DNA of 41,557 bases, taken from the NCBI GenBank assembly GCA_938003745.1, contig CALKXS010000022.1:1-41557 (forward strand), read 5' to 3'. Within the stretch, counting starts at the first letter, position 1. Every line of letters begins with the position of its first letter. The stretch is from an uncultured Algibacter sp. GTDB taxonomy: Bacteria > Bacteroidota > Bacteroidia > Flavobacteriales > Flavobacteriaceae. The notes below the pieces were generated by a model. It did not search any database and had not been told where the DNA came from. It was given only the letters and a program-made list of their open reading frames with translations. Below are positions 17,240-19,556 of this stretch, piece by piece. A program made the position numbers and the translations under genes.

Positions 17240-17270
17240 TGTGTTTTAAAAATAAAGTTTTTTATTTTTG
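17240..17270 (+). promoter_or_regulatory. Promoter of the acpP-fabF-rnc operon
   Basis: TGTG, 19 bases, TATTTTTG. The -7 box matches TAnnTTTG; the -33 box is a variant (GTG for TTG). It lies 31 bases before the acpP ATG. Confidence 0.55.
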
Positions 17271-17301
17271 CCAACTAATTTAAACTTAAAATTAAAAGAT
17301 T

Positions 17302-17535
17302 ATGTCAGACATTGCATCAAGAGTAAAAGCGATTATCGTAGACAAATTAGGAGTAGATGAGAACGAAGTTGTAACGGAAGCGAGCTTCACAAACGATTTA
17401 GGAGCAGACTCTTTAGACACTGTAGAATTAATAATGGAATTCGAAAAAGAATTCGATATTCAAATTCCAGATGATCAAGCTGAAAATATAGCGACAGTTG
17501 GTCAAGCTATCTCCTATATAGAAGAAGCTAAGTAA
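17302..17535 (+). CDS. acpP: Acyl carrier protein
   Basis: A 77-residue acidic helical protein that carries fatty acyl chains on a phosphopantetheine arm. The attachment Ser is in the DSL motif of [18 protein letters not shown] (about Ser 36). The length and the order acpP-fabF are standard for fatty acid synthesis. The fabF gene starts 22 bases later and the two should be co-transcribed. Confidence 0.98.
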
Positions 17536-17557: not shown

Positions 17558-18808
17558 ATGGAATTAAAGCGAGTTGTAGTCACAGGATTAGGTGCTTTAA
17601 CACCTATTGGCAATACCAAAGATGAATATTGGGAAGGCTTAATTAGTGGTAAAAGTGGTGCTGCGCCTATAACATATTATGATACCGAGAAGTTTAAAAC
17701 CAAGTTTGCTTGCGAATTAAAGGATTTTAAAGTTACCGATTTCATAGATAGAAAAGAGTCTCGTAGAATGGACAAATTTGCGCAGTATGCTATGGTAGCT
17801 GCCGATGAAGCTATTGCCGATTCTAAATTAAATCTAGATAAGGTTAACAAGCTTAGAGTTGGTGTTATATGGGGTGCAGGTATTGGTGGTTTAGAAACCT
17901 TTCAGCAAGAAGTTTTAAACTTTGCAGCAGGAAATGGAACTCCAAGATTTAACCCATTCTTTATTCCTAAAATGATTGCTGATATTGCACCAGGAAATAT
18001 CTCTATAAAACATGGTTTTATGGGGCCAAATTACACAACAGTTTCTGCATGTGCTTCTTCTGCTAATGCTATGTTTGATGCACTAAACTCTATACGTTTG
18101 GGACATACAGATGTAGTGGTTACTGGAGGTAGTGAAGCTGCTGTAACTATTGCTGGTATGGGTGGTTTTAATGCTATGCATGCTTTATCTACTAGAAATG
18201 AAAGTCCAGAAACAGCTTCTCGTCCATTTGATGGTACTAGAGATGGTTTTGTTTTAGGAGAAGGTGCAGGAGCACTAGTTCTTGAAGAATATGAGCACGC
18301 AAAAGCAAGAGGCGCTAAAATTTATGCTGAATGTATTGGAGGAGGGTTATCTTCTGATGCATATCACATGACAGCACCACATCCAGATGGACTTGGTGTT
18401 ATTGCTGTAATGAAAAACTGTTTAGAAAACGCAGGACTTAAACCGGAAGATGTAGACCATATTAATACACATGGAACATCAACGCCTTTAGGTGATGTGG
18501 CAGAATTAAAAGCAATTTCAGAAGTCTTTGGAGATTACGCTAAAAACATTAATATTAATTCAACAAAATCAATGACAGGTCACTTACTTGGCGCTGCAGG
18601 AGCTATTGAAGCCATTTCGGTTATATTAGCTATGGAGCACGGTATTGTGCCACCTACAATTAATCATGAAACGGTTGATGAAAATATTGATCCAGAATTA
18701 AATTTAACACTTAATAAAGCTCAAAAGAGAAATGTTAAGGTAGCTATGAGTAATACATTTGGATTTGGCGGACACAACGCCTGTGTAGTGTTCAAAAAAA
18801 TAGATTAA
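17558..18808 (+). CDS. fabF: 3-oxoacyl-[ACP] synthase II
   Basis: A 416-residue beta-ketoacyl-ACP synthase that elongates fatty acyl chains with malonyl-ACP. The catalytic triad is visible: Cys in TTVSACASSANAMFDAL (about 163-167), His in HINTHGTSTPLGD (about 304) and His in KSMTGHLLGAAGAIEA (about 341). The C-terminal SNTFGFGGHNACVVFK is typical of the family. Full length, between acpP and rnc, with 7 bases to the rnc start. Confidence 0.98.
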   Translation: MELKRVVVTGLGALTPIGNTKDEYWEGLISGKSGAAPITYYDTEKFKTKFACELKDFKVTDFIDRKESRRMDKFAQYAMVAADEAIADSKLNLDKVNKLRVGVIWGAGIGGLETFQQEVLNFAAGNGTPRFNPFFIPKMIADIAPGNISIKHGFMGPNYTTVSACASSANAMFDALNSIRLGHTDVVVTGGSEAAVTIAGMGGFNAMHALSTRNESPETASRPFDGTRDGFVLGEGAGALVLEEYEHAKARGAKIYAECIGGGLSSDAYHMTAPHPDGLGVIAVMKNCLENAGLKPEDVDHINTHGTSTPLGDVAELKAISEVFGDYAKNININSTKSMTGHLLGAAGAIEAISVILAMEHGIVPPTINHETVDENIDPELNLTLNKAQKRNVKVAMSNTFGFGGHNACVVFKKID

Positions 18809-18815
18809 ATCCCGA

Positions 18816-19556
18816 ATGAAAAACATTCGCAACATATTTAGCTCCCGTTTTAAAAGTAACGGGAGTTTTTTTATGGAAATAACTGTAATATTGGGATTCA
18901 AACCTAAAAATATAGATTATTTCAAAACGGCGTTCACACATCGTTCTATGAATATAAAAGATAGCAAGGGGAATGTTATTAATTATGAACGATTAGAGTT
19001 TTTAGGCGATGCCATGCTGAGTTCTGTAATTGCATCATATTTATATGTGGAAGTACCCAGTGGAGATGAAGGCTATTTAACAAAAATGCGATCTAAAATT
19101 GTAAGTAGAGAGCATTTAAATGAATTAGGAAAAGAATTAAACCTAATAAACCTTGTTGAAAGCAAAATCCCTACAGGACAATTTGGAAATAATATTCATG
19201 GTAATCTTTTTGAAGCATTAGTTGGTGCTATTTTTCTTGATAGAGGTTATAAGTATTGTGAAAAATTTATTTATCAGCGTATTGTAATACCTTATGTGGA
19301 TATAGAAAAGCTAGAAGGTAAGGTAATAAGTTACAAAAGTCTACTAATTGAATGGTGTCAAAAAGAAAAGAAAACTTTTAGTTATAATGTCTATGAAGAT
19401 ACAGGAAATGATGATGTACGCCATTTTTCTGTGAAATTATCTATAGATAAAAAAATTATAGCCAAAGCTAGAGCCACTTCAAAGAAGAAAGCCGAAGAAA
19501 AAGCTTCAAAACGTGCATACTTTGCCTTTCAAAAAAGTATTTCTAAAATGATATAA
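18816..19556 (+). CDS. rnc: Ribonuclease III
   Basis: A 246-residue double-stranded RNA endonuclease for rRNA and mRNA processing. The signature is NYERLEFLGDAMLSSVIASYL, with the second acidic cluster in GNLFEALVGAIFLDRGY; together they give the catalytic Glu/Asp residues. The C-terminus (about 175-240) is a dsRNA-binding domain with SYKSLLIEWCQKEKKTFSY and ARATSKKKAEEKASKRAYF. Two starts are possible, 18816 and 18873. I prefer 18816, as I recall the leader NIRNIFSSRFKSNGSFF being similar in relatives. Between the two ATGs the mRNA carries a terminator-shaped hairpin, which suggests regulation. It follows fabF by 7 bases. Confidence 0.95.
   Translation: MKNIRNIFSSRFKSNGSFFMEITVILGFKPKNIDYFKTAFTHRSMNIKDSKGNVINYERLEFLGDAMLSSVIASYLYVEVPSGDEGYLTKMRSKIVSREHLNELGKELNLINLVESKIPTGQFGNNIHGNLFEALVGAIFLDRGYKYCEKFIYQRIVIPYVDIEKLEGKVISYKSLLIEWCQKEKKTFSYNVYEDTGNDDVRHFSVKLSIDKKIIAKARATSKKKAEEKASKRAYFAFQKSISKMI
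18842..18872 (+). terminator. Terminator-like hairpin inside the start of rnc
   Basis: CTCCCGTT-TTAAAAGT-AACGGGAG is a perfect 8-bp stem followed by seven T, directly before an ATG at 18873. It lies between codons 9 and 19 of the longer rnc frame. Either the gene starts at 18873 and this is a fabF terminator, or it is a coding attenuator or an RNase III target. Confidence 0.8.

Follow-up and report, generated by a model that had tools for sequence, protein, structure and literature searches.

In a 41,557-nt stretch of DNA from an uncultured Algibacter sp. (GenBank assembly GCA_938003745.1, contig CALKXS010000022.1, positions 1 to 41,557; hereafter the window), the early codons of rnc, the gene encoding RNase III, contain a hairpin followed directly by a run of T. 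This hairpin and its T-run are conserved as an RNA structure across the Flavobacteriaceae and into several other families of the Flavobacteriales. Judged by its sequence and by that of its relatives, the element is likely an intrinsic terminator of the upstream acpP-fabF unit that overlaps rnc codons 9-19, with RNase III presumably being made from transcripts that read through it. The gene and the parts of the hairpin are as follows.

18816..19556, + strand: rnc, encoding RNase III (ATG at 18816; TIGR02191, E 7.6e-54; Pfam RNase III and dsrm domains)
18842..18849, + strand: 5' arm of the putative terminator hairpin, CTCCCGTT (codons 9-12; sequence, fold and covariation)
18850..18857, + strand: hairpin loop, TTAAAAGT (8 nt; length and sequence vary among relatives)
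18858..18865, + strand: 3' arm of the putative terminator hairpin, AACGGGAG (codons 15-17; sequence, fold and covariation)
18866..18872, + strand: T7 tract, the predicted RNA release site (codons 17-19; the second ATG is next, at 18873)

As the original prediction had described, a perfect 8-bp stem and seven T lie within the coding frame between two ATG codons, at 18842-18872. The stem contains five G-C pairs and reaches 10 pairs when an A-U and a G-U pair are added. Since the T-run ends in codon 19 of 246, the hairpin is inside the rnc open reading frame (ORF) and ahead of its stop codon. For the 101-nt region the folding energy is -27.8 kcal/mol (z = -4.8), and a genome-wide pattern search found no match to the hairpin's own pattern anywhere else in the genome. 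The reading frame from 18816 is real; counted from this start, the N-terminal pattern M..IRNI.NSR....GNFF is kept in relatives. The ATG at 18873, which had been considered as an alternative gene start preceded by codons that are not conserved, was rejected as the general start of rnc because the residue following FF in relatives is M, V, I, L, F, D, N or others, in many cases not a start codon, while the codons upstream of it are conserved.

Comparative analyses used rnc loci gathered from the genus, family, order and class, a non-random sample composed of best matches and a hand-spread selection. At least 6 of the 8 stem pairs were kept in 171 of 179 distinct Flavobacteriales rnc sequences, and the concern that the hairpin might not be conserved in relatives was thereby removed. 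At least six T follow the stem in 163 of these 171 sequences; the run is mostly 7-9 T long in sequences with the hairpin and 3-6 T in those without it. A covariance model built on 59 sequences matched 238 of 301 Flavobacteriaceae genomes, about 217 of them at E <=1e-4, with the weaker matches possibly including ordinary terminators; the listed matches that were compared with known rnc loci all sit at rnc. The hairpin is also kept in other Flavobacteriales families (loci L179-L188 in part, L192 and L198), and has been lost in Lacinutrix-like, Chryseobacterium-like and a few further lineages. In the Lacinutrix-like loci L074, L078, L085 and L126, and equally in the Chryseobacterium-like loci L189-L196 (L192 excepted), the hairpin and T-run were lost together, the fabF-rnc linkage stays and no substitute terminator is visible. 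Outside the Flavobacteriales, no such hairpin was seen in rnc, though the fabF-rnc linkage persists, and the model matched only ordinary terminators.

Codon usage across the element points to a constraint that acts on the nucleotides. Four positions are fixed to codons seldom used in the rest of these genes, namely TCC at S10 (0.94 vs a background of 0.10), CGT at R11 (0.89 vs 0.23, with AGA at 0 vs 0.30), AAC at N15 (1.00 vs 0.31) and GGG at G16 (0.97 vs 0.12). Codons 18 and 19 in the T-run are TTT in 97% and 99% of sequences vs a background of 82%, and Leu codon 20 is invariably TTR. As the N-terminal NSR....GNFF residues are conserved, the hairpin might be supposed to require nothing beyond constraint on the protein or chance in the choice of codons, but this explanation, the probability of which is practically nil, was refuted by the fixation of synonymous sites to rare codons, by recoding and by amino acids that change in step with compensatory substitutions. 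When codons 9-20 were recoded synonymously with local codon usage, a stem of at least 8 bp arose in 0.075% of 20,000 draws, and 0 of 3,000 recoded sequences folded as well as the native rnc start.

Stem cells are paired in approximately 94.4-95% of cases. Covariation counts, which are only partly corrected for relatedness, gave 31 both-sided cells vs 6.9 in shuffles (0 of 500 shuffles reached the observed number) and, on a quick tree made from the rnc protein minus its N-terminus, 18 both-sided, pair-keeping substitutions vs 0-6 with the partners slid. Some of these changes alter the protein: in the Maribacter group CCCGT/ACGGG has become CCCAT/ATGGG, which replaces Arg by His, a compensatory change of TCC/GGG to TCT/GAG replaces Gly by Glu, and a T-A to A-T swap, which has occurred several times, turns Asn/Asn into Lys/Ile. 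The window itself carries C-G at a stem pair that is T-A in relatives. The comparison of rnc starts in relatives that the original prediction had proposed therefore found the hairpin conserved with compensatory changes, and its supposition that protein and RNA needs had to be met together is borne out by the fixed rare codons and by compensatory changes, some of which alter amino acids. Palindromes may likewise covary where a protein binds them, and the repeat could be imagined as a DNA inverted repeat bound by a dimeric regulator with no RNA structure involved. This is highly improbable, as stem cells on the + strand include 154 G-U vs 21 A-C, an asymmetry that indicates selection on the + strand transcript and not on a DNA palindrome; moreover, the T-run is present on one side only and the loop length is variable.

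The two genes whose transcription would end at this hairpin lie directly upstream of rnc.

17302..17535, + strand: acpP, encoding acyl carrier protein, first gene of the unit (NF002151, E 5.8e-41)
17558..18808, + strand: fabF, encoding beta-ketoacyl-ACP synthase II (stop codon 18806-18808; TIGR03150, E 3.2e-180)

The gene order at the locus is acpP, fabF, rnc, the gene for an IPExxxVDY protein and the pyruvate kinase gene, pyk, with a gap of seven bases between the end of the fabF stop codon at 18808 and the rnc ATG. As fabF is immediately 5' of rnc in every Bacteroidia locus examined bar two, linkage is near-universal in the class and its loss could not be used as a natural test. Upstream of acpP, TATTTTTG at 17264-17271 fits the flavobacterial -7 box and represents a candidate acpP-fabF promoter.

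The features expected of an intrinsic terminator are present, including a G+C-rich stem of 8-10 bp, which falls within the range of about 5-14 bp for such stems, an 8-nt loop, an adjoining U-tract (T7) and a stop codon a short distance upstream. The hairpin begins 33 nt past the fabF stop in the window, and the stem starts 29-60 nt (median 33) past it in 147 of 172 loci. Seven covariance model matches outside rnc were examined, all of which are intergenic hairpins with a U-tract and none of which is inside an ORF; four are located 11-54 nt downstream of a long ORF's stop codon, and a fifth directly adjoins one. The remaining strong hairpin-T sites in the window are likewise 3' of stop codons. 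From acpP to the end of pyk, the rnc hairpin is the sole recurrent terminator-like site among 68 loci (57 of 68). A terminator is favored because the T-run exceeds the coding need, because the spacing between the end of fabF and the stem is conserved and because stop-proximal terminators elsewhere share the hairpin's form. Among the functions initially put forward for the hairpin, a terminator that limits read-through from fabF into rnc fits these observations.

A self-cleavage site, where RNase III would cut the hairpin in its own mRNA and limit itself, had also been put forward. The hairpin is located within rnc itself, the stem is retained with a poor T-run in some sequences, and S. aureus and Streptomyces have an autoregulation that works through the coding region (PMC3386247). 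The claim was nevertheless not supported, and self-cleavage is considered unlikely because a stem of just 8-12 bp is short for an RNase III substrate, because the T-run and the distance from the fabF stop, neither of which is needed for cutting, are kept, and because the same form is seen in ordinary terminators at the ends of unrelated genes. RNase III requires a duplex of about two helical turns, with a minimum of 11 bp; the longest stem here is 8-12 bp, and stacking on neighboring helices of the fold could lengthen the duplex. Programmed frameshifting by slippage on the T-run was rejected as well, as the zero frame is uninterrupted and the T-run varies in length from 7 to 9.

A number of observations do not sit easily with a terminator as the full explanation. 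Loci L183 and L184 and their relative L182, all from one genus, retain the hairpin with a weak or no T-run; the hairpin is even extended in this genus, a feature that termination alone would leave unexplained. No replacement terminator was found in the 41 hairpin-less loci checked, where fabF-rnc linkage is mostly intact, suggesting that termination is dispensable there. In about 25 loci, an insert of approximately 91 nt places the hairpin around 125 nt past fabF. Finally, a search of the loci gave no convincing separate rnc promoter, and a very efficient terminator would therefore starve the cell of RNase III. The -7 box motif TAnnTTTG occurs at the fabF 3' end in 128 of 179 loci, but was rejected as an rnc promoter since it is implied by conserved NTFG codons; the accompanying -33 TTG was found in only 9 of 136. 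The window copy, TACATTTG at 18754-18761, likewise follows from the NTFG codons and has no -33 TTG.

If the element does function as a terminator, acpP-fabF transcription would run into it within rnc, most polymerases leaving fabF would stop at the T-run, and the fraction that reads through would give rise to rnc mRNA and RNase III, so that rnc expression would stay below that of its neighbors, which are presumably highly expressed. Termination may be constant, setting the ratio of rnc expression to theirs, or may vary in response to a signal. The hairpin probably throttles, on the evidence of its form and position, RNase III output from a busy upstream fatty-acid operon. An RNA that ends at the T-run has the rnc start and some 18 codons but lacks a stop codon, and ribosomes initiating on this non-stop RNA would for that reason be stranded.

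A second predicted structure pairs the rnc start codon and is separated from the terminator hairpin by a short segment with fixed codons.

18813..18829, + strand: start-codon hairpin, CGAATG-AAAAA-CATTCG, predicted to sequester the rnc ATG (sequence, fold and pair counts)
18831..18839, + strand: AACATATTT segment 5' of the terminator stem, with fixed codons AAC and ATA (codon counts)

A 5-nt complement just 3' of the rnc ATG was found in 69 of 179 loci vs 0 of 120 fabF and 0 of 92 pyk starts, and an upstream 6-nt complement to the rnc start in about 20 of 179 loci vs one for fabF or pyk. The median probability that the AUG is unpaired is 0.13 for rnc vs 0.67 for fabF and 0.70 for pyk. Codon 7 is ATA (Ile) at 0.98 vs a background of 0.30 and codon 6 is AAC (Asn) at 0.87 vs 0.31; these near-fixed codons are unpaired in the predicted structure. 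By closing the start codon, the first hairpin, which occurs in about half of the sequences, may keep ribosomes off the non-stop RNAs. The insert of approximately 91 nt between fabF and rnc is conserved and rich in inverted repeats (AATAAACCAT...ATGGTTTATT; CATCTGA...TCAGATG), and supplies the CATCTGA that pairs with TCAGATG. It was found in loci that include L003 (1404-1498), L002, L004, L009, L011, L021 and L023, and is present in the window's genus-mate G001 and absent from the window. A mobile repeat was rejected as its origin, as the insert is single copy in five genomes.

These features suggest a refinement of the terminator reading, in which the element would be a regulated coding attenuator and either translation of the early codons or a bound factor would choose between termination and read-through. 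While the two adjoining conserved structures, the unusually closed start codon, the constraint on codons 3-7 outside the stem and the structured leader insert of one subgroup are consistent with such regulation, the folds show no conserved mutually exclusive antiterminator pairing, and among the sequences that keep the terminator, about half do not have the start-codon hairpin. In addition, a repeat of the 5' arm placed upstream (AATCCCG) is confined to one subgroup, and we know of no ligand or factor for an attenuator at the rnc start, which was counted against it. An attenuator is possible without being the expected outcome. More speculative, and rather doubtful at present, is a switch made of two RNA parts and shared throughout the order, in which the start-codon hairpin and the terminator would set or sense RNase III relative to lipid-synthesis transcription, and in which the terminated RNAs would be deliberate non-stop messages whose rescue by transfer-messenger RNA (tmRNA) feeds the control.

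A hairpin of this kind is found in the first twenty rnc codons of most marine and soil flavobacteria examined. A single stretch of DNA would there encode the N-terminus of an enzyme while also serving as a terminator, and compensating mutations can be traced in it over hundreds of genomes. The terminator reading gives a concrete control point for RNase III in the Bacteroidota. It would also mean that a major housekeeping mRNA is terminated in non-stop form, a prediction relevant to ribosome rescue and to the practice of annotating terminators solely between genes.

Terminators that lie inside an ORF and produce non-stop messages are known as a kind; the placement of one at the 5' coding end of rnc is new, by the literature and Rfam searched. 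The literature search found no report of an rnc coding-terminator element and nothing on rnc control in Bacteroidota, and an Rfam search found no match at the gathering score and only chance-level matches far below the cut-offs. Partial termination has been reported in Flavobacterium psychrophilum (PMC9723704). Similar to the rncO leader in E. coli and the coding sites in S. aureus and S. coelicolor, the flavobacterial element is an RNA structure at or near the rnc start that probably lowers expression. However, those sites are cleaved by RNase III, as in S. aureus, where cleavage of the rnc mRNA occurs within a long irregular helix, around nt 296 (PMC3386247), whereas the flavobacterial hairpin has the predicted anatomy of a terminator. 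It shares its stem, loop, U-tract and spacing after a stop codon with ordinary intergenic intrinsic terminators, but differs from these in being within the coding sequence of the next gene, in being kept across genera and in combining coding and RNA constraints. In E. coli arfA (PMC3989581) and Bacillus subtilis brfA (PMC6881298), a terminator within the ORF gives rise to a non-stop mRNA, and synonymous changes in the stem relieve this effect. The rnc hairpin resembles these systems in its location inside an ORF and in the predicted non-stop RNA. While the arfA and brfA terminators are each placed close to the 3' end of the gene that contains them and allow a nearly full-length protein, which is under tmRNA control, the rnc hairpin is found in codons 9-19, would yield about 18 codons and would end the transcript of the genes upstream.
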